From: Hydractinia symbiolongicarpus
Lineage: Eukaryota; Cnidaria; Hydrozoa; Anthoathecata; Hydractiniidae
Reading direction: 5' to 3'
Assembly (NCBI RefSeq): GCF_029227915.1
Contig: NC_079880.1
Location: 18,248,001 to 18,312,000 of the forward strand
DNA: 64,000 nt
Within the stretch, counting starts at the first letter, position 1. Each line of letters begins with the position of its first letter. The position numbers were made by a program, and so were the translations under genes. The notes beneath the pieces are model-generated. The model saw only the letters and a list, made by a program, of their open reading frames with translations, had not been told where the DNA came from and ran no database searches. Shown here in pieces: positions 15,928 to 64,000 of this stretch.

Positions 15928-15959
15928 ATGCGTGATAGGTATGGAAAAACATTACCGTT

Positions 15960-21205: not shown

Positions 21206-22026
<821 letters not shown>

Positions 22027-37740: not shown

Positions 37741-37898
<158 letters not shown>

Positions 37899-37969
37899 AT
37901 AGTTAATTGGTGGTGCATTTCAGACCAACATTTTTTATCTTTGTATTTCTTTTTTTTCTAGTGGTAACA

Positions 37970-38560
37970 CAATAACATTGTTTGTATTTCTTTTAATGTA
38001 AATAATCGTTGTTTTGAAACACTTTTATTGGTCTTCCTTTGTTTTTCGTTGCTTGTATGGAACTTTGGTCTGAAAGATACCACCAAATAATACATGATGT
38101 TTTTCTTGTTACAATGCGTCGTACAGCGTTGGTCATATTATTTTTTTGTGCATTCACTTGTGAATAAATAAACCCCAATTCACTTTTATTTAATAAACAT
38201 ATAAAGTTTTGGAAAAATTTGTTTGTCCAGAAAATAAAGCGAACTTCTAACGATGCAACACGCGTTGCGGTTTTCATGAGAACGGAATCCAGTGTCGAAA
38301 ATAACGCTTTCTACAGGACCGAAATTTGTAGATATGGCTTTGCTTTTCGACCTTACCAGTTATTGGCCTGGAATTGTCAATGGTATGTGTCAATAATGAC
38401 ATAAAACATGCATTCGTGTGCTCAAAAATGGCTTTTAAAATACAAAACCTAGAACAGTTAGTCGGAATTGCCCCACCATTTAAAACACAATTACATCGGA
38501 AGTTGTCAATGAAACGAAAATCGTTATCGCCATCAAGAACAGTGTATATAGAAGTCAAAT
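37970..38560 (-). pseudogene. Decayed coding remnant, possibly capsid-like
   Basis: Two minus-strand frames (38558-38274 and 38277-37993) follow each other with a frame break near 38275. Short patches in the second frame (around the NAVRRIVTRKT segment) are weakly reminiscent of capsid-like proteins of Polinton/adintovirus-type elements. The match is too degraded to be sure. Confidence 0.22.
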
Positions 38561-39011
38561 TTTATGTGCCCATTCGGGTTCACACCAAGTATCAACAGTG
38601 GCGCAAAGTTTTTGTGACTGTTGGACCCTGTTGGTTTTTTCTTGTGAAAAAGAGTATCTGCTAGGTAAGATCTAATTATTTATTGAATTTCTGAGTAGTA
38701 TATTGTTTACCAAGGTTTCCATTAGTTAAAATTTAGCTGGGTACCTAGTTATGGCTAGCCAGAAGCTAGCTAGGTATCTCTAGTTAGGTTCTGGCTAGGG
38801 CCAGGAGCTAAACAGTTCAAGAAGGAGCAACTGCCATTTAGGCTATTATATGTAGTATATTTAAGCTATGATAGTCTATGCAGGTGATATATCATAATGA
38901 TACCATTGTTTTCATTAAATAATTGCAAATGGTTGCTAAGCTGTGATATTCAACAACCCAAGGAAATAATCAAATATTATTTGGGACCCAACGTCACCAG
39001 CTGAATGTAAC
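38561..39011. other. Stretch with TAGC-rich cluster
   Basis: No gene. AGCTAGCTAG-type sequence lies at about 38730-38800. Confidence 0.4.
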
Positions 39012-40518
39012 TGTTCTGCCCAATCTTAGGACGCTGCCCAATCTTTGGACATAAAATTGCCCAGTCTTAAGACTGGGGTGTCACAAGATTGGGCAAAAGA
39101 CCAGGGTGTCACAAGATTGGGCAAAAGACCATGTTAGGCCCATCCTTGGTGCCTTTTAGATTTTAAAGAAGGGATGTATGTTTTGCCCAGATTGCGAAAA
39201 CGGCCTGTTCACAACCGGGACAGCCGGATTATGTATGCATGGTCCGATTATGTTTTTTCCCTGGTTATCAGCGTTCATAACCCGCTTGATTATGAACGCT
39301 AATATAAATGGCTGGCATTTTCTTCAAACTTTGTAAATTAAACATTCTCTGGAAGATAGCACACCCCTAAAAACTAGACATGGTGAAAGAAAAAAGTGTG
39401 GACGTAATTCTTAGTATAAACTACTCTTGTAAATACATTTCAACATATATACTTTAAAGTAACTAAATTTCACGGAACCTAAATTATTCTTTTTGCAGAA
39501 ATTATTTTGGTGAAAAGTTATTAAACTTGCGAATCCCAAAATTTAGTATTTGCCACGAAATTTTGTTTCATTTAAGAACAACAACAACTTTGCCACCAGG
39601 GCTATTTGCTTGTCAGAAGTGATGACAAATGATATAAAGCAGTCAGCCCCGATTGTATTTGTTTTATAAGTCTCGAATAATATTTAATTGTCATACATAA
39701 GCCGGCCTTTCCCGATTATGTTCGTTCTATAATAAGTGAGAAATAATATTAGACTGTCGTATATAAAATGGCCTGCCCTGATTATGTTCCTTTTATAAGT
39801 GACAAATAATATTTTTTGAGTAATAAATCGGCCCATCCTGATTATGTTGCCCTAATTATGTATTTTCTGCCCTGTTCTTAACCAGGGCAAGCTGCAAGTC
39901 CCAACAAACATTCTCAGGCACATTAAAACATCATATTTTGGGTACTGTTGAATTGACCCAGCCAAATTTTGGACACAGTAGAGTGAAAATCATAGCTAGC
40001 TAGGTAGCTGGTAGAGAACGTGTTATACATTTAGCATTTATATACAGCTTGTAGTAGTGGCTAAATTTTAAAAATAAAATGTTTATATTTATGAAGAATC
40101 AGAAAAATTGTATTCAACCATATTATTAGTTAGCTAGCTGTTAATTTCATTGGATGAGATGTTTAACTAGCTAGCGAGCTGTAGCCAGCTAGTTAATATC
40201 ATAGTCTATAGAAGAAAAACCTTATTAGACTATGCTAATATGGTTGATTAGTTTCAATTTTTTATACATAAAATACATGGTATATATAAATTGTCAGCCT
40301 TCTGATTTTCCAAGAAAAGTTTCAATTTAAAGTTCCTATTAAGAGGTAAATTCTAAAAAATTTATTGTTCTGTTTGTCTTCCACAATTGTTCTAAGATTG
40401 GGCATGTACTTCCATAGATTGGGCAGTCCAGTCTTAAGACTGGCCACCCATTTGTCACTGTCAGAAGATTGGCCTGGCCAGTCTTAAGACGGGGTGTGTT
40501 CCAAGATTGGGCAGAACA
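39012..40518. mobile_element. DNA element with TGTTCTGCCCAATCTT inverted ends
   Basis: Perfect 16-bp terminal inverted repeats (39012-39027 and 40503-40518). Several subterminal copies of 'gcccaatctt' and 'cagtcttaagactgg' lie near both ends. The interior (39640-39850) has about three 65-70 bp tandem units with 'gattatgttc'. No transposase ORF is present, so it is non-autonomous at 1.5 kb. Confidence 0.6.
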
Positions 40519-40792
40519 TAACCCTACAGTGCCACTGATTTTTATGAGAGTAATAAAAGGTTGAATATTCCAGCACCGCACTGAAAATGTTTCTCGGGAC
40601 TCAGCCCAAAAGCTATAGGACATGTTTTTTAGACCCGGGCTGACATTTTCAATCATGAGAATTGCTAATAATAGTTTTCGCACCTGTATTATTGTTGAAT
40701 TGAGATGCTGTGAAAAATGGCTTTTCGATGTCCTGAGAAATGCATAAATTTTTGAACTCTGAAACTATGATAATAGGTCCAAAAACTTTTGG

Positions 40793-41232
40793 CTCTATTT
40801 CATTGGACTGGTTTAAAACCACAGCATACCAGGTTTTGAGATACTCTTTTGATTTTTTAAGAAGTTATGGGACTTTTAATTTTAACCACAAATACGATTT
40901 TATACTGTTATTGAAATTGTTTTGTAAAATTACCACCTTTAGTAATGTTTAAATTCACAAATGATGTCATGGCAGTATAATAAGCTAATTAATAATTGCA
41001 AGCATTTGCATACTCTATTTCATTGGACTGGTTTAAAACCACAGCTTACCAGGTTTTGAGATACTCTTTTGATTTTTTAAGAAGTTATGGGACTTTTAAT
41101 TTTAACGACAAATACGATTTTATACTGTTATTGAAATTGTTTTGTAAAATTACCACCTTTAGTAATGTTTAAATTCACAAATGATGTCATGGCAGTATAA
41201 TAAGCTAATTAATAATTGCAAGCATTTGCATA
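40793..41232. repeat. 220-bp tandem duplication
   Basis: Two copies (40793-41012 and 41013-41232) are nearly identical, with only a couple of substitutions noted. The first copy contains the ORF ending at 40952. There is no recognised coding content. Confidence 0.9.
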
Positions 41233-41655
41233 CGTGCCATTAAAATTAGGTGTTAAGTATCCCCTTTAACCTTTTCCATGAAAATCATAAATGCAGTAAA
41301 TATAGTAAAAAAGCATAGTTAAAAATTTTTATTACGTTCTTTTAAATCAAATTGTTATGTAATTGTATATAATAACAAATTCCTCATGAAGACTCCCAGG
41401 AGCTAAATAATTTGGAAAAGCATTTTTTATATATAGTTTGTTTGATTTTACTGTTGGTATATTACTTCTGCAACTAAAATAAAACACAGGCTACAACAAC
41501 CTGTAAATATCAGATATTTACCTAACTAGTCTAAAATCTCCTAACTAGAATACTATCCTAATAGTATAGTAGCCTAATTTGTTTTCCCTAAATGATGAAG
41601 ATTGGTTGCATATAGGTAATCTTTACTTATATCACTACATAAAGCTTTTTTGTTT
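41233..41655. other. AT-rich stretch, no gene recognised
   Basis: No feature could be supported before the GATA microsatellite. Confidence 0.4.
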
Positions 41656-41657
41656 TG

Positions 41658-42020
41658 ATAGATAGATAGATAGATAGATGTGCATATTTTACATGGCTAG
41701 CCTCACAAATATCGAGGGATATACCCTGTCTATTATTTCCAGGAGGGGCCATGGCTTAGATGGAGAGTCCTAGAGTATTTAATGCTCATTTTGAGCTACG
41801 CAGACCCAATTAGTAGGGCCCACGCTCTACCAGACAACTCCCGGCAACATCCAACGGCCCACACAGTGTGCCATCTCCCCAATTTCCCTCACATGGCTTG
41901 GGTTAACCCGGGGCTATGGTAACATTCACTCGCCCATGTTGAATCGCCGTCAAGAGGAATTGAACCCCGGTCTCCCGCACAGAGTACGAAAGCTATAACC
42001 ACTAATCTACGGCGCCACCC
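41658..42020 (-). mobile_element. tRNA-derived SINE with (GATA) tail
   Basis: Minus-strand element. The head (42020-41945) reads GGGTGGCGCCGTAGATTAGT then a B box GGTTCAATTCC, like a tRNA. The body of about 250 bp is GC-richer than its surroundings. It ends in a short GATAGATA tract at 41658-41680, a typical simple-repeat SINE tail. Confidence 0.65.
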
Positions 42021-43850
42021 AAATGTAATTTATTAACTATGTTTCAGCTGTTCGACAGCCATTCTTAAGTACAAATCATTGGCATAAACAACTATTGCAA
42101 TATTTTTATACAAATAATTGTATATACGACCATATCCGATGATCATAACCTTGGCCTTAAATGGACTGTCCGGTGAAAAATGATTATAAAGTATTATTTT
42201 AAATTATCACATAGAAAATACCTTTCTTTTTTGATATTATTCACTTAATCATACATAATCAAACTTTTTATCGTAGTTGTTGTTAATGCATGGCTTCATC
42301 TTGTTGCTGCAAATGTCGGAAAAGGTCCTGAGTTAAAAATTTAATATGCGTAATTATGCATGTTACGTAAGAACAGTGGTGAAAACATACTATATGCAGT
42401 GAAAGTGTGTAGCGTATTCGGTAGAAAATATAACCCTCCCCCTAGAAGTTAGGTGTTTAGAAACTTATTTTATAAAAAATTTCAATTTTAACCTCTTCTC
42501 TGCAAATTATGAAATGCGATTATTACTATGCCTTCCTGGAACACAAAAATCATGGTATTAGGTTTTCGTTATGAACCGGAAGATTTATAAAATACGGGTT
42601 GCTCCTGAAACACATTGTTTCAAACTCCGTATTGAATTAAAGTTGAAGTGTATATACCCTAAAAATTAATGCACAGCTATAAACCATCTCATTTTGATAA
42701 CATAATTTTGTTAACATATTTTTAGACATTTATACTAACTTTGCGTTATATTTTTTTAGACTGAAGCTTTGAAGTTTTGTGCAGTTTCCTGGTTTGAAAG
42801 AATTGGTAATATTTTAGTAAAAGTTGTTTGTATACAATTTACTGCATCATTTCAAGTTACCATGAAATACTGTAAAGAAGTAACTGTAGCTTAAAGTTCC
42901 TGCTGAGAATTTACAGGCAATCGGTAACCTAATTGTAGGGGAAAGGGTGGGGCAGAGGACAAGAAAATTTTACCACTTATTTCAATTTATTAACACCCCT
43001 CATTAATTTGCGTTCTTCAATAAAAACGTTGTGGAGAACAAAAATATTTATATAAATAACAAAAGCTATTCAATCCTGTAGAGGAAACATTAGCCAATGT
43101 TTACAGTGTCTGATACAAGCAGAATACCTGTTGCACTCTATACATTACCCTCCTAGCCCTCTTCCCCTTGATTTCGGCCCCCTACCCCAACTATTGAGTT
43201 GAAGGAAATTACCATCCCTGCCCCCACTCCCACTCCTTAATAAGCCCCTCCCACTACAATTAGGGTTACCAAGTGTAGTCTTATTTCTTTCATAATACAA
43301 CGTTTTTTTCATAATACAAAGTCAGTAGTGCTGCTAATTAATCCATTGTTACTTTTGCTGCCAAAAATATTTTGTCAATTTTTAATCGGGGTAAAAAGAT
43401 AATTCGTTACTTGGGATGTTTTTTGCTATTACCTTGTATCACTAAAGTAATATAATAATTTTTTATTTTTTAGACATTTTCAGCGTTACACGTTTTATAA
43501 AAGAACACTTGGTGTTCCAGTTTCTTATTTTGGGTACTTTATAAATTTAGTTTTAGTTAATCAAATCTACTAAAATTCCTTTAAAAAATTTCAATACAAA
43601 ACCGTGTTTATTCCAAAATTTCCTTACATAAATTTTGCCTGCAAAATTATTCTTGCTAAAAAAAATCAAACATTGATTCGAATAAAAGTGGATTTCGTTT
43701 CTGATGGCAGTATTCTTAACATAACATTTAGGTGATTTGAAAGGCAAGCCCTTTAAAACGAAAAGTAATTTCTCAATAAAAGACTTTTGATAATAGAACG
43801 TACAATTTATGGTAACTTGAATTTCTATTACTTTTGTTATTGTAGAAAAT
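42021..43850. other. AT-rich stretch, no gene recognised
   Basis: No ORF with a domain and no repeat unit was found. A C-rich patch occurs at about 43140-43260. Confidence 0.4.
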
Positions 43851-43879
43851 GTATGTGTTTGTGCGGTACCTCGTATTCA

Positions 43880-45170
43880 GTGGATACGCCTGTATTTTAT
43901 GCATACACTCGTATTCAATGTAGGCAATTGTATTTGTAGGGAATGTAGGCGCTCGTTTATAATGCAAACACTCGTATTAGTTTTAATGCAAACACTCGTA
44001 TATAGCTAATGCAGACACTCGTATATAGCTAATGCAGACACCCGTGTATAATGCAAACACTTGTGTATAATGGAAACACTGTCGTATATGGCTAATGCAA
44101 ACACTCGTATATAGCTCATGCAGACACTCGTATATAGCTAATGCAGACACCCGTGTATAATGCCAACACTTGTGTATAATGGAAACACTGTCGTATATGG
44201 CTAATGCAGACACTCGTATATAGCTAATGCAGACACTCGTATATAGCTAATGCAGATACTCATTTATAATGCAAACACTCGTATATAAGAAGACACTCGT
44301 ATTTGCTACAGACACTCGTATTTGTTGCAGCCATTGATATTCGTTGCAGCCACTCGTGTTCGTTACAGGCACTCGTATTCGTTGCAGACACTCGTATGTA
44401 GAACCTCGTATTTCAGTGATTCGATTGTATTTAATGTATCCACTTGTATTCAATACAGCCAAATGTATGTGGACAGTTGCAATTAGTATAGACACTTATC
44501 TCTTATTTGTTGCAGTCACTTGAATGCCGTAATTGTATTTGATGAATGAATTTTATTTAATGTTATACTTGTATTCAATGTGTACTCTCGTTTTTTATGC
44601 AGACATGTACTTTATGTAAACACCTGTATTTTATGCAGGCATTTGTATGTAGTAACTCGTATTCCGTTATTACACCAGTAATTAATGTATATACTTCAGT
44701 GCTTCGAATAAACGCCTGAGGCGGTTATTTAAGTTTTCGATTTTTAGAGGGGCGTTTATTTAAGAGATCTCTACATTTTCTATATACATATCTATATCAT
44801 CCATATCGTCAATTATATAATGATGTAGTCCAGCGTTGACCTTATCTTCATATTTATTAAGTGAAACAAGCGTCCCTGTAAAGGAGAAGGCGTTTATTAA
44901 AAGGGGCAATTGATGAAAAAACCTTTAAAAGAGGGAAAGGGCGCGAAAAGGAACAGGGCGTTTAACCGAAGCATTGCGGTACTCATATTCAAGCAGACAA
45001 TGTGTGTAAACACTTGTATTTATGTAGACACTTGTGTTATATGTAGATGCTGGTATTTATGTAGACACTCATATTTTATGCAGAAACTTGTAACTGTGCG
45101 GAATATGTAAAACACTCGTATTTTATGCAGGCACTCGTATGTAGGAACTCATATTCAGGGAGAAAACTGT
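43880..45170. repeat. Degenerate 'actcgtat' minisatellite
   Basis: The core at 43980-44260 has 23-bp units ('cagacactcgtatatagcta' plus atg). It grades into more diverged units with 'gcagacactcgtattt' to about 44700 and again at 44990-45170. The gap 44700-44980 holds an unrelated repeat with 'gcgtttatttaag'. The short ORFs are repeat artefacts. Confidence 0.8.
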
Positions 45171-45190
45171 ATGTGGACACATGCATTTAA

Positions 45191-45635
45191 CACAGAAACT
45201 CGTAAAACTCTCGCAAAAGTTTGTGTTTTTAACCCTAAGCATATCGGATTATATATCCTCCATAACTTCTGATAGCTAAAGCTTCCTAAATGAAATGGAA
45301 ACACAAAGTAACAGTAGGAACTGGGAAAAACGACTAAGTTGCGGTCACAAACGTGACAAGGGCCTGACAGAGGGCGGTTAAAACTTCCTTTATACTTGGC
45401 TATGACTCGCATCAACTTTCGTCAACTCGCGTCAATATAAAAGCGTAAAAAAGTGCTTAATGTAAAGACAGCAGGTGAAAAAAAATTGCCTTCAAATATG
45501 CTTCCAAATGTGAAAATCTTTATTTTGAGTACATATCTTAAAGTTTATAAAATAATTCGCAGAAAAAGACAACCGATAAATTCATATTCTTGCAGAAAAA
45601 AACGAATTCGAGTATATCCATGTCTTTATAGTAAT
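45191..45635. other. AT-rich stretch, no gene recognised
   Basis: No feature could be supported. Confidence 0.4.
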
Positions 45636-45960
45636 CGGGGTGATAGCAAGTTCCGAGGTTGATGTAAAGAACGGGATGATATTAAGGGGTGAGGTTGATA
45701 TAAAGAACGGGGTGATAATAAGTGCCGAGGTTAGTACAAGGACCGAAGGTGATAATAAATGCCGAGGTTGATGTAAGGATCGGGGTGATGATAAGTGCCG
45801 AGGTTGATATAAAGAACGGGGTGATAAGTGCCGAGGTTGATATAAGGATTGAAGATCACAATGAGAACCACGTGAAATAAAGATCGGGGTGATAAACACT
45901 GCCAAGGTTGATAGAAGGACCGAATATGATAATAAGTACCCCGTGTATTATAGGATCGTA
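45636..45960. repeat. 36-bp minisatellite
   Basis: About nine units of 'ggggtgataataagtgccga' plus 'ggttgatataaagaac', with small length changes. The minus-strand 'YQPRHLSPRS' ORFs come from it. Confidence 0.88.
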
Positions 45961-46284
45961 GGTGAGAATAAATGTCGAGATTCTGTAAATGCAAGTAGTT
46001 TGCTCAGATAGTTCCCTGTCGGGCAGGCGAAACAGGGAAGAAACAGTACCTGGTCCTGATGATAAACTGATCATTCTCGTTGTTTGATAACCTACACCTA
46101 TCGTTTTTCTATCGTACTGTTTAATAAAATATTCTTTCTTTAATTGCGTAACGTTAAGCCGCCCTAATTTTTATCGATTTTGCAAGCGTTGATAATTTGT
46201 TTTTTTTATACAAACGGGTTGCTGGAGGAAAAGAAACACAGTAACTCGTTTACCCACAGGCACTATTTCCGCAACTTTATGCTA

Positions 46285-46414
46285 CTAGTCAGTAGCCCGT
46301 AGATAAATCCACGGGTTATCGTGTCCTTTATCTACCGCATTTCGTGTGTTTCACTACTGCAGTGACCATTTTGCGTGACAGACACACTGACGTATACGGG
46401 TATTATAATATAGA
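46285..46414 (-). mobile_element. Mini-Helitron, 130 bp
   Basis: CTAG at 46285-46288, a hairpin arm pair CCCGT...ACGGG, and a 5' end 'cgtatacgggtattataata' then TAGA before T. It belongs to the same subfamily as 4098-4208 and 47508-47636. Confidence 0.62.
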
Positions 46415-46827
46415 TAAATAAGTAACAAGAAAAACCCGTTCATTTTTGGGAGTATTCAAAAAATTTCCGCAGATACAATATTTCGAGAAAGTGACAGAAA
46501 CTCGCACTTTGTGGAAATTATTTCACGTTGCAATTAAACCTTATCTACTAAGATTAGCCGTATAAATAAAAATTGGATCCTGGTTGAGAAAAACAAAAAC
46601 ACAAAATACAGCCTGCAGTTACTATCGCGTAGGAAAATTCACCTGATACTTCCAGTTCACCGAAAACAAAGATGAAAGTTCCATTTAATTGCTAAGTACA
46701 GGTGGCTACGCCTTATGAATTAAATTTACGCATCATTTCCTTCCACCGGTGTTATTACAACTGCTTACTTCAGTAGAACTGTATTTGTATGAATATGTAT
46801 TTTTATCTTTATTTTAGAATTTTCGAC
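46415..46827. other. Upstream region of the recombinase-SET gene
   Basis: AT-rich. Contains the probable 5' UTR or promoter of the plus-strand gene starting at 46828. A possible acceptor (tattttag) lies at 46810-46817, just before the start codon. No promoter motif is assigned. Confidence 0.35.
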
Positions 46828-49800
46828 ATGGAAGGTAGAAAGTCTCTCTGCAGAAATACAGTACGGCAATTAGTTTATGTAACAAGACTATCAAAACAAT
46901 AGTTGTTGTAGTTTTACATAGCCAGATGTTAGTAATGTGTATAAAACATAGCCTATTTACCTATTGCTATGTTAAAAAAGAGTTGTCCGAATTTTTTTTA
47001 AAGTTATGGACTTGACTTGATAACAACGGTTTTGTTTATTATTAGCCTACCATTCAGAAGTACAGTTCTCACGAGTTTGATAACTTGAAAGATGCAGTGA
47101 GAAAAAAGTCACCGTGCAATGTGTTAGTTGGCGTTATTGAAAAAATAATGGCTTTAAAAAATGTTTTGGTTATTAAAGTAGCTGATGGCACTTGTGAAGC
47201 ATTTGTTCGTGTCCAGGAGTACTCCGACAAATTATCCAAATATATCAGCTCTGGGGATATATTGTACCTAAAAAAAATAACTTTTGATGAGGATAAAATG
47301 GGAGAATTTGCCAAAAAATCATTGATTTCGAAACATTCAAACATGGTGTTACCATATCCAGAGCATTGTAAGTAACTCTTAGTAATTTTATTTTATTTTA
47401 TTTATTTATCATTTATTCGGCAAAATTAGGTAGGTGCAAGTATTTCTTGTTTATTAACCATTTATAACGATTTTCAAATTTCTTACGTTTCAAATTTTTA
47501 ATTACTACTAGTCGGTAGCCCATGGAAATATCCCGGGTTCGCCCGTCCTTTTTATACAGCATTGCGTCTCGCTAATTGGGCAGCTAAAATACCATTTTGC
47601 GTGACAGACAAACGTATACGGGTATTATAATATAGACTAGTCGTTAAACCGTGGAAAAATCCACGGGGTCGCCCGTCCTTTATATATCGCATTTCGTGTT
47701 TCCGTAACAAAAAGACAAACAGACGCACGAACACACAGACGGAATACGGCTATTATTAACGAGATAGCCGGTAGCTCGTGGAAAATCCACAGGACCGCCC
47801 ATCCTTTATATATAGCATATTTCGTGTTTCCGTAGCACAACGTTTTTCTCGTGCACAAACAGACAGACGGAATACGGCTATTATTAAAGAGACTAGTCGT
47901 TTACCTGTGGAAGAATCCACGGGGTCGCCCGTCCTTTATATATCGCATTTCGTGTTTCCGTAACAAAAAGACAAACAGACGCTCGAACAGACAGACGGAA
48001 TGCGGCTATTATTAAAGAGATGTGCGGGCATCGTGATCTTAAATTCAGTCGCACGGTAGCACACTTTTAAAAGTCACTTTGTTGGTGTTGCTAATAATAT
48101 GATCGATAAGAGTTTTTGATTTTCTGGTCGGCGAGAATATGTGTTGATTTCGTCCAAACATTTGTAAGATATCTTTGTATTTCATTGTTACTGGGTTATC
48201 GGTGTCGTAAAGATCTATGTTAGACTATTCCGTTTTTTAAAAATTTCTGACAGTTTTGGTGCTTAAATTTATTTAGCTATTCAATTTTTTCACTATCCAC
48301 AAAGTTCAATTGATAAAATGTCCCTAATTACATGAATTTAAGATAATCTTCCGATGTTACTAGGTCAACGGTGCGGAGCATGTTTTTTTATGTATCATTA
48401 TGTCAAAGTTCATATTGTTCAATATAATATAAAATCCATCGAACATTGAAGAAAGTGACTGAGCGTCCTGATGAGCTGTTTTGAGTTGTGTGATTTATTT
48501 TTTCTTTGTGTGTCCAGTAAATGTTTTGATGCGATTGATGAGAACCAGGCCACGGATTTTTCGCTATATCGCCTGACAAAATTATGTTAAAAGTTGCTAT
48601 TGAATTACTGTAATATAAAATGCGTCTGTTTGATCGCTTCAGTGGAGAAAACATGAACATAAAACTTGTCTGTATAACCATAAAACTAGGATTAACTCCA
48701 AAATTATCACACCACCTAAACAGCATCCAATTGTTACCATACATATATCAAAACAGTCAATAATCCAATAAGCTAGTTAACACTTTAACAGGTACAACTC
48801 GTTTAACATATAATGTTTATGTATCCACTCCACATTTACACGTCTGTTACACATCCGATCATCTCTCGCTCAAATTTTATAATGTTTTTAATGTTAACGT
48901 TCAAGCTTTTTAACGTATTGGAGACGTGTTTGAAAAATAACTCACAATATTGTCTTTCAACGTTGAAGCTATCCCATGAATGTAATGCCTTCTTATTCGC
49001 ATTATCCTTAACAATAATATGACAATATTTTTTAGGGAAAAAAATGTTTTATTTCGAACATTTGGAGGCACTTCATTCGTTTATCTACTGCAATTATAAT
49101 ATTGTTAAAAATACATCTGATAACGACGAAAGCGAATGGAGCATCTTTTCCTTTAGCGAAAAAGGTTAGACTATTTCATCAAGGTGTAGTATTGTGTTAG
49201 TCTGAAATAGAAATTTTTTATCTTTTTTTTTTAGATCCAGAGTTCATTATCACAATTGCAGTGAGTTAAATTACTTTGTACTTTTAACCCTACTGAGCGA
49301 AGTTTAGGAAGGGTGGAGGGAGGGGACTTGGAATTCTTTCTGCACATAGCGCTTTATAAGATAGATAAAATGAAGAAAACTTTAAAGAAGATTTTCTTAA
49401 CAAAATATTTCTGAGAGATCACCCAATTCCAACACTTTGATGCATACCGTAAATGCTCGATTAAGCGCCCCGGGCGTTTGTTTCAATGTTGGCTTTTAGG
49501 GTGGGCTCTAGATGGGCAGTAAGTCAAAAAGCGCTTATAACAAAATATCATTTTTCTGTTATGTTAAAGTCTGTTTTAAGGAAACTATATTGGTCGCAAA
49601 ATAAAAAGAACAACGGATATAGATGAAGCAGGTATAAAATAACATGCTTCTGAGCGTAAAGGTTTATGGTTAAATTTTCTCTGCGTCAATAAAATGATAG
49701 CGGATTTTTTAAACAAAAAGGTAGACAAACATTTTGACAAATGTTTTATGATGCATTTTAAATTTTAAAAATACTTGATTAAGTGCGCTTATTCGGGAGT

Positions 49801-52800
49801 GGGAGCTTAATTGAACATTTATGGATGCTTAGTAATAGTTATAATGGATAGTTATAATGCGTTTGCTATAAACTTTGCAGTCCGATGAAGCGCCAGCGCA
49901 CATGGAGGAAATGAATTCAATGCAGAAAGATAACCTGGTAAAAAGATTAACTTCTCCATAATATTTTACAGCGATTTACATTTGTGTTCTTATTAATGAA
50001 TAACTTGTTTTATCACTAGGTTCAAATTCAAGAAGAAGAAAGCACTTCGGAATACGAGCCCAGCTCATTGGATAGTGAATCAGGTACAATTAAGCCTGTT
50101 AGCCTGTTATTATTATGGGCTAAGATTTTAAATTAAACAAAGTCTGTTAAGTTGTCGGCCGTCCAATGAGCTCTGACAGGTTTGCGTACTTGTTTTATAG
50201 ATATTTGTTCTAATTGCGACGAACTTCGAACCTCGACCAACGTTTGCAATGTATTAAGTCCGAAATTGTATTTAATCTTTTAAACATTCTCTCTTTCCTT
50301 GGTTATTTTTCCTTTGCTTTTTTGCATTTAGAAAAAGAAAGAGAAGATCAACATCTTATAATGGTTAGACATTATATCACCCTCTCTTTTAATCTATTTT
50401 CTGTTAAGCTTTTAGCCGGATTTTGTGTTTCACAAGGGAAATTTACAAATTACCCGGGCATATTATGATCAGATACAAAGTTAAGCTAAAAAACTGATAG
50501 GGGACCATTTAGTCCATTGTTTTCTACATAGCTTGAACTATTCCTGTCTACACTTTTGTTTTATTGTCTACTGAAATGTGACTTACTTATTTAGTATCAT
50601 AAAGCTAAGAAGAGAAAACAGTCTGATGTCAACAAAAACACTGCAACTAACAGGAAGGTACAAATGCAATTCTTTTCTTGTTATTGTATCTATTCACACA
50701 AACATGGTCACTAGTATTTCACATTTTAATCTTTTTTATTAGAATGGAAAAAAGGAGAGTGGGAAGATGGAAACATCAGACTCCGAAGAGGACATCTTCT
50801 CTCAACGCAAGGTATTATAAAACCATAACGATGTATTATATATTAAATATATATTTTATATATAATAAATTCAGCTGTTGTGCTCAATATCTGTTGTACA
50901 ATTTTTCGGATATATAGATTTACTGGTTTTTTAGACAAAGAAACTAAGACAAGCAGAGCAAGCTGCGGAGTACCAGCCACAAGACATTATTTGTAAAAAG
51001 CGTGAATTTCAACACCGCTTAAAAAAAAGGAATGCCCCTCTTAGAAAAGTGAAAACCGAATTGCAATTGAAGAAGCAGAGAAAGAAAGTTGAAGAACTCG
51101 TTTCCCAACATTTGGGTTCTGCTGATGCTATAACACAGCACTATCATGGTTTACAAAAAAAGTACTATATCTACAAGTGTTCTGTCTGTGGGGCGTTTGT
51201 GAGCGAAAAATTAAGAAGACACTTACAAGAAAAACATAAATACTCATGGTCGGATGCCAGGCTACAGGAAACAAAGATGCGTGTATTTTTTCTGTGGTGC
51301 AACGCGACAAAACATGAAACACATTTACCGTTGCCGTGTATGGAGTGCAGCGAATGGCATACGAGGTAGAGTTATTTTCTAGCTATCGGAGCTCCTCTGG
51401 GCATCCTCACCCTTGTCAGGTTTATTAGTAACTCTCTTTTCCTATATTGTATGGCTACGATACTTTGTAGCCTTCATATTAATCTTCAATTTAATTTAAT
51501 TTAAAGACGTTTAGTAGTAAAGTAGCAATGTGAAAAAGGCTGTTTTGAACGTTTATTTTTTATTTTTTAATACAAATATTTTATTTTTTACCAAAAACTT
51601 TCCGTTACTTACTTACTGTTAATTCGTGTAGAGCGACCTAGCCGCTGGATACAAATTGTTAACGCCCAATAAGGCGCATTGTGGCACTTTAGGCGGAGAG
51701 GGTGTAGTGGTAGCGCATTTGACTTGTAACCATAAGGTTTAAGGTTTGATTTCTCACTCTGCTCAATTTGAATATACTGTAGTCAGCCCATTTCAGCTTT
51801 TTAATGACCGCTAATTGGCTTGTGTGGCAGGCAAACAAGTTAGAGCAATGCTATACTTATCTCTCGTACTTAGATTTCGAAAAGCGAAAACATCTCATTG
51901 CTTATACTATATTTTAAGGCTAGATCATCATCTCAAACGTCATCCTTTTCATAAACAGATGTCTATGGAAGAAATAAAAGAAACAGTAGAGCAAGCTAGG
52001 GCTGAACATTGGAGCAAAGGATTTGGCCAAAATGGCAGTAAAGTACCAAGTGAGGACAAAGTAACAGAAAAGTTTAAATCTAACCTAAATGTTGAGGCGG
52101 ATGGCGACGATTTTGTGTCAAGATCACAGCCAGTGCCTTTGCAACATGATCATCCAAGTTTGGACTATATTCCGTCAGGATCTTGCCGTCTCACTTCGTC
52201 CAAACGAAAGGAATGGGGTGTAAAACCTGATGATTTTTTTAGTATTTATTTTTCCACAGCTGATGACTTGCTAGACAATTTTCAAGAAGAACTGCTACAG
52301 TCTGGCCATACAAAAGACAACTCAACTCAACATAGAAACCAAGTTGAATTAATATGGACATCGATAAGCAAAGACCTCGTCATGTTTCCTATAAATCCCC
52401 TTTCGAACATGCATTTGTTAAGGGATTATTACCATCGGCCTACATTTAAAACTATTGGCAAAAAGGATGGAGTGCAGGCGAGCACCTTGCGTGCACGTTA
52501 TGGATCTTTAGGAATGTTTTTACAGTACCTCCGACGTAACGAGATTTTTGCTGGAATGAGCAGATTGCAGCTTTCCTCTCTTTCACAATCTGCTAATGAT
52601 TTCAACAAGCAGTTAAACCCGTTGGTGAAGCAGAGAAAGGTCGAAATTAGAAAGAACAAGTGCAAGCAGCTGCTTCGACCAACGCATTTTATCAAGTATG
52701 GTGAGAGCAAATTTGTGCAACATTTGATTTCACAAGTGCAGAAGGGAGTTACAAAGAGGAGCCAATTTACAAGATCGTTTGCTATTCAATTTCGTGACTA

Positions 52801-55800
52801 TTTGATCACCAATTTAGTTATTGGAAACGGATTGCGTGCCTCTAACATTATCGAGCTGACAACAAAGGATGTGGATAATGCTACAGTTGTGGAGGGCTAT
52901 GAAGGACATAAAGTACTTTCCAACTACAAATACAAGACAAGTACAATTTATGGCGAAAAATTCATCGTCGTAAATGACATGCTCTATTTGCAACTTCAAT
53001 TTTTCCTTCGCAATTTGAGATCAATAATTTCAAAAAACCCTTCATTAAAAGTTTTTCTTCCTGCCTCTGGAGCGCCGAAGATGAGCCAAACAAATGTGTC
53101 GGCAAGCTTAACGGCAAGTTTTAAACTTGCAAAAGTTTTATTTCAAAATGAATACCAACGCATTTCATGTACAAGAGTGCGATGTGGTCTGGCAACGTTT
53201 GCTTGTAACGATGGCGGCTTTGAATCAGGTTTTTTTGCGAAGCATTTTATGAAAAACAAAGAACAGACGACGGACATGCACTACAACTTACTGTCGAATC
53301 GCAGACATGCGTTGAATATAGCCATGAAGCTATATGCTTCTTTCAACGGCGTCGATGGAGAGAAAATTACGATTGAACCAAAAGATGTCCATGAAATAGC
53401 CGATAAGCTTAAAAAATCTTCCGGGAATCTGAACAAAGAACAGATACTTCGCTGGTTAAAAAGTAACGATCCACATGTCACCAAAAGCGAGTTGGCTGAT
53501 TTCGAGGAAATGTTAGCTGAGTGTGATCAAAAACCAAGCGGAAATACTTCAAGTTTCTATGGTGCTTCGCAGCAGGTAAACAATTATTTTAAACGTTATG
53601 GTACCTAAAGCCACAAACAAAAACAATAAAAAACAATTATTTTGGCTACTTATTATTTTACTTTTTTTAACTTTTTTTTAAAGATTTATTTTAACCGACG
53701 CAATTGTTTTCAAACAAACTAAAAACTTTTGACTCATAGCTTATTCGCAAAAGTTAAAAAAGTGAAGTACAATACAGTTTAAATGAATTTCCTTAGGAGA
53801 AAGATATTGATTTTATTTCCGTTGCTAACTTGGATGGTACTACCACAGAAAACGAAAAGGTTTGTTTTTACTTAACATACAAGATAACTAGCTGATAAAC
53901 AGTGGTAATAAAACTATCATGATCTTCATATAAACTTTAGCTAAGTAGCGAGCGCAGCTCTGAAGATGGCGACAGTGATAGCGAGAATGAAAGTTTTGTT
54001 AATTCCCACGATGGCAGCTTAGAGGTATAGTCCGCAAACTACATTCTTTTAAAACAAGTTTATATGTTTTGGTTTTACACTTTTAGGCAGGTTAAATATT
54101 AGACACGTTTATAATTTACGCATGTACTTATTATAATCTACCCATAGGAGCAGTGGACAGATAAAAATGTTAAAAACATCAGCAAAAAAGTTTCTACTAG
54201 GACGAAGGTATATTTTGCAATATTTGAAAAATATGTTTAAAAGCAAGACTAAACTTCAGATCACGAAGCAAGCCTTTTGGTTCCAAAGAGGAGTTATTTG
54301 AGGCAAAAATATTTTGACGAGTATATAATCGACTTTTTTTCTATTTTAATGAGTAGACTTAGTAATTCGAAAATATAGAAATATAAATTTATGAGATCGT
54401 TCATGTGAATATCGTAAGCATTCAATAAAAAGTGTTGTTGATTTTTAGGTCGAAATAACATCTGATTCCAGTGGCTCAGATATAGACTGCGATCATCTAC
54501 AGGTAAAGTAATATCTTTAAGCAAAATGTCAATGGGTCTTACAGCTTTTTATAAATTTGATTTCGGTCATCACTTGGTTGCACACTATCCCTACAAACCC
54601 TTGAAACAAACAACATGTATATGTAGTAACCTAGCTTGAAAGCACACAAAAGACATATAGACAGCGACATGATATTTTCTTATACTTATCTATGCTACGT
54701 CTGGATTGTTTAGAGTGATATCCAGGACGTTCTGTTTCAATATGACCAAAGGCGACCAGGAGATCTCATATATGCACGACAAAGTGGTGGAAGGATTGCC
54801 TATTTGATGTGTGCTCACTTTTGTGAGCCATTGATTATCCGAAAGCCATTTGATAATGAATTTAGTGTCGAAACATTTAAAGATGAAGAAGTGGCTTATT
54901 TTATAAGTAAAATTAAGAGCAGTATTTTGCGCAAACATCTGGAAATGTTTACCCCAACGAGTGTTAAATTTTTCGTACTGGCCCTAAGAAGAAAATATTG
55001 GTCTAATGTTAAGCTTAATTTCACAAAATGGAAGAGATTCAGAAAAGAAGGGTCTAGCATGATTCAAATGTGTAAAGATTAGTAAGTTTGCTGCTACTAC
55101 TGTTTTTATATACGTTTTCACTCAAAAGCAGCACAGAATGTGCAAAAACCTAATTTTGAACCCCTGATAAAGTATATACATATTGGCTTTGTTTGAAAAT
55201 TCCTTTTTCTTTCTTTCTAGCAATGATTTTTCTGTTACCTCGGTGAGTGTTTTATATTTATGTTTTACTTTAGAATAAATGGAAAGCCATGTCATACTTT
55301 TTAAATTTTTCTGTTCCCGTACAAATTGTTATTGATATGAAGTTTCAAAGATATTTTAAAGGTCTATCTATATAGAGCTCTCTAGAGAACGAAAAATTAT
55401 AGTGATAAATACGAGTCAGAAAAATACATAGTTTATGACGGTATGTATCTCTTTACGTGTTTTTCTGACAATTCGATATTTAATAGCCTGAGCAAAGAAA
55501 TAAAGATAATGACCTCCATCACACTAGTCAAACCAGCGATTACAAAGAAGAGGTAAAACAAATTAATGCTGTTTTGAAAACAGAGCCTGTATGCATTATT
55601 ACCGACTATCATTATGTATATTTTAGTCAAGTAGCGCCAACCAAGACTTATCGCAAAAAGACAATGCCAAATCTGTGGTCTGCGTCAAGCAAACGAAGGT
55701 AATTTAGATGCAATGAATTTTGAAAAAAAAATATCATTTAAATAAAATCTTACCTAAAAAATCCAAATTATTTTGTGGTTGTAGAACTATGAATTAAGAA

Positions 55801-57731
55801 AGGCTACCGTCTATGTACCACCAACAGTATGCGACACTCCATCATTTATGCATGACGTAAGTGATTTTTTTGTTTGTTTTTATTTGGTTTGGTCTGCGAG
55901 CATACTAGATTGAATAGTCAGAATGACTTTTTGAATTTAGCCAAACGAGGTGAAGCAACAGAATCCAAAAGCATCAGAGGTAATAATATGGTTCTAATCA
56001 TCATTAAGTCATCGAACTACCTTTTTTTCACTAAACACATTCCATTTTGGAATGTTATAGGTTCTCCAATCTTGTAACGACCATTTTACGCGTCCAAAAG
56101 AAGTAAGTAACACGGAGCCGGCATTACACTGAATAATCATGCTGTTTACTCTTTAAATGTTATGATTGTATCAAAAAAAAGTATTACTATTTAGGAACAG
56201 GCTTTGGGGGATGAGCAATGTTGCTTGACAAATGTAGATCCCTCAAGCAATTTCATTTGCAAAAAGATCGACAGTTATATAGGTAGATCGCTAGTTCATG
56301 CAGTCCATAACAAACTCTTCCAAATATCTTCCAATGTGAGCACGCTGGTAATAAAACACTGATCAATTTTGTTGATATTCTAGGCCATGGTGTATTTGCT
56401 TTAAAAAAATTCATACCTGGCGACTTTCTTCTCCAGTATCCTGGAAGTTTAGTGACCGCGGAAAAGGGTGATAAACTGGAAAAATACTATGAAAAGAAAG
56501 GAAAAGGATGCTATCTTTACTTTTTTAATTACCATGGAAAAAAATTATGGTAAGAATTTCGTTGGATTATCAAAAGTACGCTGATGCACCTTTCTACACA
56601 TTTTTTAAATATATTTTTAGTGTGGATGCTACAAAAAACAATCGGTTGGGCAAATTTGTCAATGACAGCCAGAAGTCCTACGCCAACAGCGTAATGAAAG
56701 TAAAGACGTTTGGTGGGAAACCTTTTCTTTGCTTATACGCATTGAAAACTATTGAGAAAGGTTCAGAGATCAGGTAACTATCTCTAACAAAGAAATGTAA
56801 ACAATTAAATCCTGTCATCAATTATTACATTTTTTACAATTTCTATTTCTAGATATAGTTATGGCGAAACTTCTGGTCTGACTTGGCGAAAAATGGTAGG
56901 AGAAATAAAGTTTATTTAACTGTTAAATAAGGCTATCCTTTTCATAAAAACCGTGTTGTTGCTTTGGCCACCTAATACAACCACCACTTTATGTTGCGGA
57001 ATAAATTTACAAAAATTAGCTAATTGAAAATATATAATTTGTCATTAAAATTAATATAAAGTCATTAAAATTTCAAAATATGTTAGTTTTTTTCAAAACA
57101 CATAAGTGTAATTTCCAAAGTAAACAAAAAAGAGCCTGCCATAAATTTGACATCGCACATACCGGACGAACATGCCAGAATATGTGCTTCGGCCATCTAA
57201 GTCTGCAATGCAACAAAAACGTATTGTGCGCACACGAAAATTGCAGTGCGGCGCTTTGCTAACACATTTACGTAATATTTTATTCAGCCTCAGTCTTGAA
57301 TACATTTTTATCACAAATATCAAGTGTAAAGGTACTACAGATACATTTGCGATCATTGTTAAGGACGATAGTTTTTCAGCATGATCAACAATAAAATGAA
57401 AAGTTACTTACTTTTTCTGTACATGTTATCTTGATGAAATTTATCTGATTGTTTCTTCAAATTGTATCGTTTATAGGCAAACTACAAAAGGCCATTTTCC
57501 TTGACAACTCTGGTAAGTAACTCTCATTTGCAATTTGCAGTATGAAGCAACCGCCTTTTTAAACACTTTGTTCTACTTCTTAATTAGGGTAAGATGGATG
57601 AATCAGTAGACGCCAACTTAGAGGTAATCAAGATTTATACCACTATTATTGTGGCAACTAATTCGTGTTATTTAAAAAACTTTCCATTTCCATTTTAGCT
57701 ATCACCTGATCGAGAATTAGATTTAGGTTAA
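46828..57731 (+). CDS. Zinc-finger, tyrosine-recombinase-like and SET-domain fusion protein
   Basis: I join 29 exons into one frame of about 1,465 residues. They are 46828-46878, 47046-47367, 49036-49164, 49235-49260, 49881-49937, 50020-50083, 50332-50363, 50595-50657, 50743-50811, 50935-51365, 51919-53575, 53797-53859, 53941-54024, 54148-54207, 54449-54502, 54714-55081, 55221-55242, 55487-55552, 55627-55698, 55785-55856, 55941-55979, 56061-56102, 56195-56282, 56384-56549, 56621-56773, 56853-56895, 57477-57512, 57588-57623 and 57699-57731. All have GT/AG borders with matching phases. Layout: possible OB-type domain (about 18-125), charged linker, two C2H2-like fingers (353-423), recombinase core (about 700-880), Ser/Asp/Glu-rich linkers, an unknown domain (1055-1177), and a KMT5A-like SET domain (about 1305-1425). 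Inference: a Crypton-like recombinase combined with a lysine methyltransferase, perhaps domesticated. Two adjacent genes remain possible. Confidence 0.75.
47046..47367 (+). other. Exon 2: N-terminal domain, possibly OB-fold
   Basis: Residues 18-125 of the fusion protein. Alternating strands (NVLVGVIEKIMALKNVLVIK, then EAFVRVQEY, then GDILYLKKITF) suggest a small beta-barrel such as an OB fold, found in nucleic-acid-binding proteins. This is a fold guess from pattern only. Confidence 0.4.
47508..48020 (-). mobile_element. Tandem array of four mini-Helitrons
   Basis: Units 47508-47636, 47637-47764, 47765-47892 and 47893-48020 are each about 128 bp. Each has a 3' CCCGTGGA/TCCACGGG-type hairpin and CTAG (lost to a TAG in unit 3) and a 5' TCTCTTTAATAATAGCCGTA-type end. 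Junctions are CTAG/TC. The array lies in intron 2 of the recombinase-SET gene, opposite to its transcription. Confidence 0.68.
48403..48744 (-). pseudogene. LINE N-terminal fragment with 2A-like motif
   Basis: A 113-residue minus-strand frame contains ILSGDIAKNPWPG. This resembles the GDxxxNPGP segment at the start of CR1/L2-type non-LTR retrotransposon ORF2 proteins, which is 2A-like in some of them. The NPGP glycine is replaced by Trp. No endonuclease follows, so it is an intronic remnant. Confidence 0.45.
50935..51365 (+). other. Exon 10: basic linker and C2H2 fingers
   Basis: Residues 272-415. A Lys/Arg-rich helix is followed by YKCSVCG...HLQEKH (C2-H2 finger, from Cys353). The first half of a second finger, CMECSEWH, is completed across the intron by LDHHLKRH in exon 11. 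The split codon (AG/G) rebuilds Arg415 precisely, which supports the intron call. Confidence 0.75.
51694..51764 (+). repeat. tRNA-like SINE head in intron 10
   Basis: GGAGAGGGTGTAGTGGTAGC gives a clear A box. A TTGACTTGTAACC anticodon-like loop (TGT, Thr-like) and GGTTTGATTTC, a mutated B box, follow. It looks like the tRNA-derived head of a SINE and not a working tRNA, as the acceptor stem does not pair well. Confidence 0.5.
51919..53575 (+). other. Exon 11: tyrosine-recombinase-like core
   Basis: Residues 415-967. Box I reads NGLRASNIIELTTKDV with Arg721, the classic G-LR-x-x-E-L pattern. A Lys-rich YKYKTSTIYG hairpin follows. Box II reads CTRVRCGLATFA with Arg836 and Thr at the usual HxxR histidine. 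The C-terminal box reads AKHFMKN...MHYN with candidate nucleophile Tyr870. This agrees with the integrase/Crypton family. The upstream half (residues 420-700) should include the SAM-like core-binding domain. The exon could also read on to a stop at 53608, giving a SET-less isoform. Confidence 0.7.
56195..56895 (+). other. Exons 23-26: SET domain
   Basis: Residues of about 1305-1425. GHGVFALKKF (the GxG cofactor motif, 1311-1313), a GCYLYFFNYHGKKLCVDATK segment as in KMT5A, NRLGKFVNDSQ (canonical NHS replaced by NDS at 1380-1382) and YSYGE (canonical YDYG). KMT5A monomethylates histone H4 Lys20 and other lysines. A short tail without post-SET cysteines follows. Confidence 0.78.
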
Positions 57732-59556
57732 TGTTTCGTTTGTATTTAATGGAAGGTCCGTTTATGTAAATGTTAGATTTCACTCTATATGTTTAGATAA
57801 CTACAGGGTCAGCGGACGTTAATTTTTTCTATCTCTTTAATTTTTAAATATGCTACGCTAAAAGTATTGAACGATATTATTTTTAACTGCCATTTTGTAT
57901 ATTGCGTGTATATATGATTATACTCATTACTGCGTATCTAACTATTAACTTTTAGTTGGTTCTTACAAACTAAGATTTGGATAGTTACAGTACTATTTTA
58001 ACCTAATTTAGTGATAATTTCTGATCTTTGGCGAAACTATAGCGCTGTCCCTGTAAATGTATTTATTCAATCTGTAATCAGTGTTGATTTAAAGATAATT
58101 ATAGTTACGAAATAATTAGCTTGTAATGGTTGCAATGGTTGTTTTGATTATCCCAGTAATAATCCTTTGTAAACAATTATGCAAAACTGCACCATTACTT
58201 TTAGTTCATCTGTAGCCAATTATTGCTTAGTTCTTGTTACACGATAAATTAAAAGACACACAAAATGTAGCATATTTTGGTATTCTTGTCAGCGTAATTG
58301 CTGGGAAACCTTTTCTTTGCTTATACGCTCTTGTTGTTAGTAATTTAAAAAGTGGCGGCTGATCATCACAATGATGGAATTGATCTGGTAGATCTGTGAC
58401 AGAAAAAAAACCTAGAGGGTTTTGAGAAAATTAAAATTCTTTCTCTTCCAAGAAAAGAATTTAGAAGGAAACAACGCAACAAGTGAATAGTTGGATAAAG
58501 CATCAACAAAGAGTAGACTTCGACACATATTTTTAAACCTATTTAAACCTGCAACAATGCTTTTTTTGCATTGATCGAGTCGGGTACTTTGATGGAGTTA
58601 TCACTCTCCAAAGATAAGGCTGGGTGTAATTAAACCCCATTGCCGATTTAACTATTTGGAAAAGATAGTTTACCTCATCTATTATAAAAAGAATAGGTAC
58701 GATTTGCGGATTGTTTAATACTGGTGGATTCATTTGAGATTTCTGGTCAAACACTGGTATGATGGCAATCGCAATGCAAATCAATTGCAGACAGCACAGT
58801 GCGCGATACGGATTTGTGAAGTACTGCACCACTTATTGCGACAAAGTAAAAAAACAATATATGTATATAAAATAAGAATAACAATAAAGTGTAATTTTTT
58901 AGAACTACACCTTCATAGTGTTTTTAGAACAAAAGGATATGTTTTTATCAAAGAAGTTACTGACCATAAAAATGTACCTTCCCCAAATAAACTAATTAAT
59001 GTTTCGCCCAGAAATGCATGTTGTTATGTATTTTAAGAGTTAGCACAAAATCTGAAAAATAAACAGTTAACAACACTTTAAATATTGCATAGTTCTTCCA
59101 GCAAAAAAATGTAAAATGTAAAAAATATTCTTGCAAGGAATAAATTATTGCATGCGGTCCTTCCCCACCAAACTTTACACAAAATGTCAAAATGAACGGT
59201 TTGTGAGGAGTAGATCCGTATTAACAAAAACAGTTTTTTCAGCAACTTGCATACTGTCTTTAACCAAAAAATTTTTTTCACAAAATACAAATCTCATACA
59301 GTAGACTGCTACGAAATTTATATAAAATATTTACAGAAAGTAAAAGCATGGTGTAAAATCTAATTAGAGGGTCCAAGGAGTCTCTATTTATATATATGTA
59401 TATATAGATAACGAGACAGTCAAGTAATCGAGACAAATTTAGGATATGACCGTAGGCTGTCTGGTGCGTTTATCATTATTTCGCACTTTTTAAATTGGTT
59501 ATTCTACTTTGTCTAAGGGCCGGAATATTTCCCATATGAGAAATAAGGCCCTTAAG
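57732..59556. other. 3' flank of recombinase-SET gene, no other gene recognised
   Basis: Contains the likely 3' UTR and a short SET-exon-like fragment at 58292-58327. The ORFs at 58539-58832 (minus) and 58734-59036 (plus) overlap on opposite strands and show no domain. Confidence 0.4.
58292..58327 (+). pseudogene. Fragment copied from the SET exon
   Basis: CAGCGTAAT followed by 27 bases identical to part of exon 25 (from TGGGAAACCTTTTC to TTATACGC), with 18-odd bases missing between them. It lies about 0.6 kb past the stop codon. Confidence 0.6.
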
Positions 59557-60062
59557 GCGGGCTTGCACGTACAGTTTTCTTGTTAAAGAAATCTTTCGAA
59601 ACAAGTATTTCATAGTGTAAGGAGCATTTCGAAATATTTTAAAACATTTCTAAAGTTTTTACCACCTGCTTTCTTCTAAAAGTTTTTTCAAAGGATGCCG
59701 ACATCCTGACTATATCACATGGCGTACTTTCATTCATCACTTTGAGTTTGACATTGTGTATCTTCTAAACAAACGAAGATACGTAATTTTACGAACAAAA
59801 AACACAAACTATAATTGAATTCGATGCAGCGCGTAGATTTCGCAACAGGCAGGCACCATATACGCCAACAGCAGAGGAACAAGGATGGTAAAAAACGTTT
59901 TATTTGAAGTAATATTTCCAGTGAGTAATAAAATGGCACCTGAATTACACCATGACTCAAGTGATTACAAACATTTCGCAATAAAGATTGATATAGTGTA
60001 AAAAGCTTGAAATTTTTCTTTCGAAAGTTTTCTTTAACAAGAAAACTGTACGTGTAAGCCCG
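59557..60062. mobile_element. MITE-like element with about 35-bp inverted ends
   Basis: The left end GCGGGCTTGCACGTACAGTT then TTCTTGTTAAAGAAA is matched in inverted orientation at 60016-60062, with few mismatches. It is 506 bp with no transposase. The internal ORF (60065-59730) has no domain. No clear target duplication is seen. Confidence 0.65.
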
Positions 60063-61051
60063 CATTTACTATATTGTTCTTTTAAGATAAGCGGTTTTTT
60101 TAAAGATAATGCTGAACTACACATTGAAGCATTCCCTCAAAATTTTAAAATAAAGCTTAAATATGGCAAATTTTCGTAAGATGCAGATAATAACGAAAAC
60201 AAATTATTTCGGACTAAATTAAATAACGTACACGATTTATTTCAAGAAAATTTTTGGAAAATTTCCAGAGTGTGAGACTAACGGACTAACGATGAGCTAA
60301 CCATAGTGCGCATAATATGTTAGCCAATTTCAAATTTTGAGCTACGGGTAGCTGATGTATTCGTTTCACGTTCACACTACGGTGCATCGTTAGCTCTTTT
60401 GTAGCCGAATATAATACGAGAAAGTCTTGCTATTATTACTACTTCGAAGAAGACGACGTAGCCTGGAAAGAAAGGAATTATCAATATTACGAAAAAGGAA
60501 ACGACTTTAGGTCAGAAAGGCAGGAAAAATCTTTCACCCTTAACGCCAACTCTTCTCCTTCTTTTTCAAACGTCATTTTTTAATTTTGTAAGCCATTTAG
60601 TTTTAAAACAACCTTTTACAACAAAACATAAATCACTTTGAGCACGATTTATGTCGGCTTCCCTTGAAGAATGCTGAAAGTGAGCTTATCTCCCTGTTAG
60701 CCATAAAATATCAAAAAATCGTGAGAACCAAGGTTAAACGATTTGTTAAGCGGGTCATTGTTCCTCTTTGGTTTCCTTTTTTTTAAACTATACTTGAAAA
60801 ATAATTAGATTAATATAAAAAAATTAGAATTAATGGACATTTTTAATTCTCCGAGAAGTACTACAACATAATTTACCGTACACAGATTTATTTTCTTTGT
60901 TTTTGAAAGGAGCAAAAAATTAACTTTTCTTTTAAGATGTTGCCTTAGGTAAAAAAAAAGAAAAAAAGATTAATGAGACATATCAAAAAACGAATATCAA
61001 TAAAGGTCTGAAATATCCCACCTGTTATTATTACAAGTTTGTTAGACATAA
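60063..61051. other. AT-rich stretch, no gene recognised
   Basis: A loose inverted pair (ACTAACGATGAGCTAAC near 60283 and GCATCGTTAGCTC near 60382) may mark a small degraded element. Nothing else is supportable. Confidence 0.35.
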
Positions 61052-61169
61052 TAATGTCTGAATTATCCCACCGTCTGAATTATCCCACCATGTCTGAATT
61101 ATCCCACCATTTGTCTGAATAATCCCACCATGTCTGAATATTCCCACCATTGTCTGAATAACCCCACCA
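61052..61169. repeat. About 20-bp minisatellite beside (AAT)n
   Basis: About six copies of 'gtctgaattatcccaccat' with small changes, running into the trinucleotide tract. Confidence 0.85.
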
Positions 61170-61170
61170 T

Positions 61171-64000
<2,830 letters not shown>

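Follow-up and report, generated by a model that had tools for sequence, protein, structure and literature searches.

A predicted zinc finger, tyrosine recombinase and SET gene in a putative large mobile element bordered by (AAT)n tracts in Hydractinia symbiolongicarpus

A predicted gene of Hydractinia symbiolongicarpus that joins zinc fingers, a tyrosine recombinase (YR) and a SET domain is likely to be the one gene recognised in a large YR element that was mobile recently. This element would insert into (AAT)n microsatellites, here into the (AAT)n tail of a LINE. It is present in near-identical copies with (AAT)n borders, carries tandem motifs at its right end and an inverse copy at its left end, and contains a conserved YR–SET gene. 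The gene lies in a stretch of 64,000 nucleotides (the window), which was compared with the whole genome of 480.9 Mb in 76 contigs, of which contigs C1 to C15 measure 11.6–42.6 Mb. The features of the window are collected in Table 1.

Table 1. Features of the element, its gene and its insertion target in the window
Feature	Positions	Strand	Remarks
(AAT)n tract, left border, 52 pure units	37742..37897	.	homology of the C2, C6b and C4 copies begins inside
Mobile element, ~23.3 kb	37898..61168	+	borders common to copies C2, C4, C6b and the window
Inverse terminal motif, 11 bp inside left border	37909..37925	-	13/17 match; 0 of 2000 shuffles
Degenerate terminal motif, left end	38068..38084	+	3 mismatches; another at 38461, also 3
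Gene with fingers, YR and SET	46828..57731	+	29 exons, 1,459 aa, rebuilt model
Exon 10: first C2H2-like finger and first half of second	50935..51365	+	53% identical in C14 relative
Exon 11: remainder of second finger and tyrosine recombinase	51919..53575	+	codons R 52835, R 53180, Y 53282
Read-through stop and AATAAA	53606..53630	+	exon 11 reading past its donor
Exon 16: conserved domain, unknown type	54714..55081	+	41.5% identical in C14 relative
KMT5A-type SET, exons 23-26	56195..56895	+	NHS motif changed to NDS
Seven tandem copies of GTCTGAATTATCCCACC, 0-2 mismatches, right end	61006..61168	+	17-bp motif before tract
(ATA)n tract, right border, (AAT)n tail of LINE	61169..61583	.	homology of the copies ends inside
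LINE 3' part, insertion target, outside element	61584..63159	-	RT-like ORF by eye

The predicted gene and its conserved exons

A first-pass annotation had drawn a 29-exon gene with GT/AG introns and in-phase junctions, and an independent rebuild bore this out. In our own reconstruction the coding sequence is 4,380 nt long, is divisible by three and has a single terminal stop. The annotation agrees on divisibility and the stop, and its length of 4,398 nt is 18 nt (6 codons) longer. The codons that it had described as split, those of Arg415, Gly1311 and Cys1366, fall at junctions 10/11, 23/24 and 24/25 of the rebuilt model. The fusion of fingers, recombinase and SET that it had proposed is supported by the Pfam match of the SET domain, the homology of the YR and a relative on contig C14 in which the exons follow the same order. 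A single transcript joining all 29 exons is predicted from the gene model. The zinc fingers were called from their C..C..H..H spacing, as their Pfam matches all lie below the cut-off. An OB-like fold in exon 2 was considered and dropped as a guess without support.

The C14 relative (6053814-6064330, minus strand) is 58% identical to the window in the YR exon. It keeps exons 10, 11, 16, 20, 23, 24 and 25 in order and all on one strand, which argues that the fusion of YR and SET is more than chance. The match of exon 20 is short (E 0.016), and exons 9 and 22 have left only traces (E 13 and 20). Junctions 10/11, 23/24 and 24/25 occupy the same codons in the C14 relative, as do the ends of exons 11, 20 and 25, and the splice sites there look usable by eye. 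The nonsynonymous difference between the window and this relative is 0.267 (pN) in the YR and 0.26 and 0.23 in two SET exons, and the synonymous sites are saturated (pS 0.78-0.98). Comparison of the two sequences indicates that YR and SET are both under constraint. Exon 16 is under less constraint (0.40 nonsynonymous versus 0.93 synonymous), and it has weak matches in a related family of seven copies and at locus L029.

The assignment of exon 11 as a YR rests on homology, because the window protein reaches 16.9 bits against Phage_integrase in Pfam, below the cut-off of 27.1, whereas three relatives that are 42-43% identical to the YR exon pass it (L017, 29.1 bits; L020, 31.8; L015, 28.0). A further relative, L014, scores 15.5 bits and is also under the cut-off. 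R293, K326, K334, R408 and Y442 (numbered from 51959) are invariant in all six aligned YR sequences. A weak alignment with XerD (E 0.07) puts Thr where the active site of a YR normally has its second His, and the position of the third His/Trp, counting back from the Tyr, is Asn. A PDB search with the single YR sequence gave 0 matches, and an AlphaFold model of the YR exon alone had a mean pLDDT of 33.1. A viral or bacterial source of the YR was also considered and set aside; no relative was confirmed in the 80 viral and 274 genome contig stretches tried, both scans starting from two short peptide patterns.

When exon 11 is read through its donor, a stop codon (53606-53608) is followed by AATAAA (53625-53630), so a short YR-only isoform could be made. 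It is therefore conceivable, though unlikely, that YR and SET are separate products of a mobile element, with the short isoform ending at 53608 as the acting recombinase and the SET exons in another transcript. The arrangement in the seven-copy family would agree with this, since a SET match, limited to the second half of the domain, lies about 4 kb upstream of the YR in all seven copies and also at L028. However, the small linking exons of the window gene stay in phase, exons 16, 20 and 23-25 are in kept order in the C14 relative, and all five families read by eye have a splice donor after the YR exon. These points argue for one joined product.

We also consider it improbable that the element is a genuine Crypton (CryptonA) with an acquired SET domain. 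It is a YR DNA element in an animal, and Cryptons have been reported in cnidarians (PMC3212892), but Pfam scans at E up to 1 of the window protein and eight others, seven of them YR-like, gave no DUF3504 match. Animal Cryptons, compared here by description, are moreover described in PMC3212892 as having no terminal repeats and no C-terminal domain. The term "Crypton-like" in the first-pass annotation fits insofar as this is a YR element; it does not fit the missing DUF3504 match, the terminal motif arrays and the SET domain.

Copies, borders and terminal motifs of the element

All 539 residues of the YR exon are identical across four copies on three contigs (C2, C4 and, twice, C6, including the window). 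Substitutions between the four amount to 0 to 0.251% in the compared blocks; two of these, each of about 4.6 kb, cover four copies, and a third of 1.7 kb covers three. Since the copies are nearly identical, activity may be recent, perhaps recent enough to catch in living colonies. The left homology of the C2, C6b and C4 copies to the window starts at 37742-37757, within the tract, and the right homology of the same copies likewise ends within a tract; the sequences past the borders are unrelated. In the C4 copy, homology is lost and regained at about 43701-43765 of the window, as would be expected of an insert. In the window, exactly two AAT tracts have 10 or more pure units, and both are borders of the element. 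AAT tracts also lie at the borders of the other fetched loci, which were chosen near ends (12 rows in all, with one tract split over two loci). One copy of the YR exon on C14 is 97% identical and has three stops; the ends of this degraded copy were sought and not found. A SET relic that is 95% identical lies at C15:7715000. Other YR families share about 42-58% identity with the window exon.

The YR–SET gene is the sole gene recognised in the element, the parts at 37.9-46.8 and 57.8-61.1 kb having been inspected as long ORFs by eye. Reverse transcriptase, as carried by DIRS and other YR retroelements, is absent from the gene product (Pfam), and none was seen by eye in the long ORFs of the element. 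A Harbinger DDE transposase is likewise absent from the gene product (Pfam), with the rest of the element viewed as long ORFs by eye. No structured RNA was matched in Rfam at gathering scores between 37000 and 62000. A retroposed copy is ruled out because all four copies retain introns where blocks were compared. The first-pass annotation had offered two origins for the gene. Its suggestion of a gene of a mobile element agrees with the four near-identical copies and their common borders in (AAT)n, and these same copies contradict domestication as a lone, single-copy gene. Of the searches that it proposed, the one for multiple copies yielded these four, and the one for target-site duplications revealed no classical duplication; (AAT)n flanks the element on both sides.

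The sequence at 61584-62100 occurs at 40 or more places including the window, with 96-100% identity over its length (40 of 658 candidates were scored). Since minus-strand ORFs resembling reverse transcriptase lie next to it, it was read as the 3' end of a LINE. AAT repeats are present at the same end in all 18 other LINE copies fetched, and the window element is therefore placed in a LINE tail. In 13 of these copies the tract is succeeded by other DNA within 150 bases, and in the other five it runs on. Elements are also stacked across one tract: the C4 copy lies beside an end bearing the motif of the C14 relative, and both the C6b copy and an element ending at C4:13424066 lie beside an L015-type left end.

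The 17-bp motif of the right end has 19 exact matches in the genome. They lie at five places, namely the four copies and C3:10426718, where the terminus alone matches. When up to two mismatches are allowed, one strand has 91 matches and the other 70, compared with 44 and 31 for the reversed pattern. A left inverse motif was found in three of three families tested (0 of 2000 shuffles in each), matching at 15/17 positions in the seven-copy family and at 16/17 in the L015-type left end, which was assigned to its type by motif only. The related families have the same end design with different motifs, and end in (AAT)n. The right end with its tract was read directly in six copies of the seven-copy family and located by the pattern in the seventh.

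A genome scan for CCACC-(AAT)n gave 435 matches in total versus 639 for the reversed control, which was thus not exceeded. Because any AAT tract fits this pattern loosely, only places with at most two mismatches were used (56 distinct). The 26 YR loci compared with them are merged homology rows down to E 8.5e-17, weaker rows being excluded. At 17 of the 26, an (AAT)n end is found on the same strand no more than 15 kb downstream, where 0.02 would be expected from density; the opposite strand has none within 15 kb. When the four copies that inspired the pattern are left aside, 13 of 22 YR loci have a downstream (AAT)n end. Among the nine loci without the pattern, L015 ends in (AAT)n by direct reading and most others are decayed. 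A domesticated host YR–SET gene, carried in segmental duplications that broke at microsatellites by chance, would fit the intron-rich and constrained gene but is highly implausible, given exact borders and element-specific motifs common to four copies and families with other motifs that also end in (AAT)n.

For a mobile YR element, the fingers and the YR would bind the terminal motifs, and the YR would exchange strands inside AAT units present in both the element and its target, probably via an excised circle. The SET domain might mark chromatin at the element or at the target, favouring expression or insertion.

Some other features were seen elsewhere in the window. At 14408-15937 there is a 33-bp tandem repeat of about 46 copies (95% match) with three frames open for more than 500 codons. 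Overlapping ORFs of 160 aa on opposite strands at 21632-22475 encode nearly the same protein, which is an inverted duplication; by eye this protein resembles a GIY-YIG-type piece. An ORF at 27579-27995 resembles part of a LIM-domain protein (by eye).

The SET domain and related families

The SET domain scores 41.6 bits (Pfam cut-off 22.4) over residues 1305-1415 of the joined protein, and its 14 best PDB matches are all KMT5A/SETD8 (top E 9.4e-22). It is thus a predicted relative of the H4K20 monomethylase KMT5A. The cofactor motif NHS is replaced by NDS in the window SET and in those of L004, L003, L007, L061 and L069, so its methylation activity is uncertain.

SET follows the YR downstream in the window, L014 and L017 types; none was found in the 3.5 kb downstream of the L015 locus. 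The end of the C14 relative with one mismatch, CCACCAA-AATAAT, is found at eight places (C1:25355723, C4:13424066, C4:35935399, C5:8506212, two on C7, and on C10 and C15). Four of these, on C1, C4, C5 and C15, belong to elements with the L014 end motif in which a SET match lies at a distance of 3.5 kb and no match to the YR was seen; they may be non-autonomous elements that retained the SET. Another multi-copy family, of the L004 type (L004, L005, L006 and L079, on contigs C1, C7, C8, C2 and others), has a KMT5A-like SET with a zf-DBF finger after it (Pfam, 46.6 bits). A (TAA)n end was seen at two of six places tried in this family (C1 and C7), and an AAT tract was absent at the other four guessed ends (L084, L085, L086 and L092); the end on C1 looks like the inverse of the adjacent left end. 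Among 31 SET loci, picked from the 150 SET matches listed, 16 have the terminus pattern, and the other 15 are L004-like with an end unlike the pattern. At least four related SET gene families lie in elements with (AAT)n borders. The recurrence of SET in the L014, L017 and seven-copy families and in elements with the L014 end suggests that it is more than incidental cargo.

Three distant YR-like proteins (L064, L065 and L067) are about 24% identical, with single ORFs of 580-724 aa and finger-like N-termini, and reached no Pfam cut-off. At L083 and L088, arrays of other short motifs lie to the right of (TAA)n and look like the left ends of further families.

KMT5A makes H4K20me1, and Hydractinia has as many as 65 KMT5A-like genes, mostly with an N-terminal SET, of which 22 are activated early; similar expansions are described in Hydra and sea urchin (PMC10368294). 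That study views the embryo genes as a host gene expansion and a possible novel mode of chromatin regulation, and its main text contains 0 words starting with recombinase or integrase. KMT5A/SETD8 proteins are the nearest PDB relatives of the window SET, and the Hydractinia KMT5A-like genes are likened to it by description. Many extra histone methyltransferase genes of such animals may be carried by mobile DNA, the published genes being compared by description. We propose, as a reading that we hold to be evenly balanced, an undescribed group of large animal YR transposons distinct from Cryptons, which reside in (AAT)n tracts such as the LINE tail of the window, have their own terminal motif in each family and keep, as one of their core enzymes, a SET of the KMT5A type. 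On this reading most of the many KMT5A-like genes of Hydractinia, and perhaps of Hydra and sea urchin, including those activated when the embryonic genome is turned on, would be element genes that set histone methylation for the benefit of the element. With related SET families in (AAT)n-bordered elements, the published idea of chromatin regulation by KMT5A-like genes (PMC10368294) becomes testable. Insertion into simple repeats would allow the element to spare genes.

Comparison with known systems

SETMAR, a domesticated primate gene, has a SET domain and a DDE transposase in one protein. The window gene is similar in that SET is fused to a transposition enzyme, but it belongs to a multi-copy mobile family and its enzyme is a YR. 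Starships are fungal YR elements with a DUF3435-type captain. DUF3435 was absent from Pfam scans at E up to 1 of the window protein and eight others, Starships being compared by domain name only.

Animal Cryptons (CryptonA and CryptonI) are DNA elements moved by a YR, for which a circle intermediate has been proposed (PMC3212892). The window element shares with them a DNA element with a tyrosine recombinase. Unlike Cryptons as described there, it is about 23 kb long with arrays of terminal motifs and (AAT)n as target, and its gene has 29 exons and a SET domain. By the general rule given in the same source, YRs exchange strands at short cores between inverted arms that lie 6-8 bp apart, whereas the inverted arms of the window element are further apart. 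HarbingerS and the SET-bearing MuDR of Phytophthora are described as transposons with an acquired SET methyltransferase gene (PMC12730594). These move by DDE transposases, and the window element has its YR in the same predicted protein as the SET. Endogenous nimaviruses have a YR with a C2H2 domain and are inserted in simple repeats such as (TAACC)n (PMC10871703); they are large viral genomes (300-360 kb in pemoniviruses), whereas the window element has one recognised gene and lies in (AAT)n.

No YR–SET element is named in the titles and abstract beginnings listed for the open-access literature searched. YR transposons, SET-bearing DDE transposons and YR viruses in simple repeats are known separately (PMC3212892, PMC12730594, PMC10871703), and in the window element one predicted transposon protein would unite site-specific DNA recombination with histone methylation.
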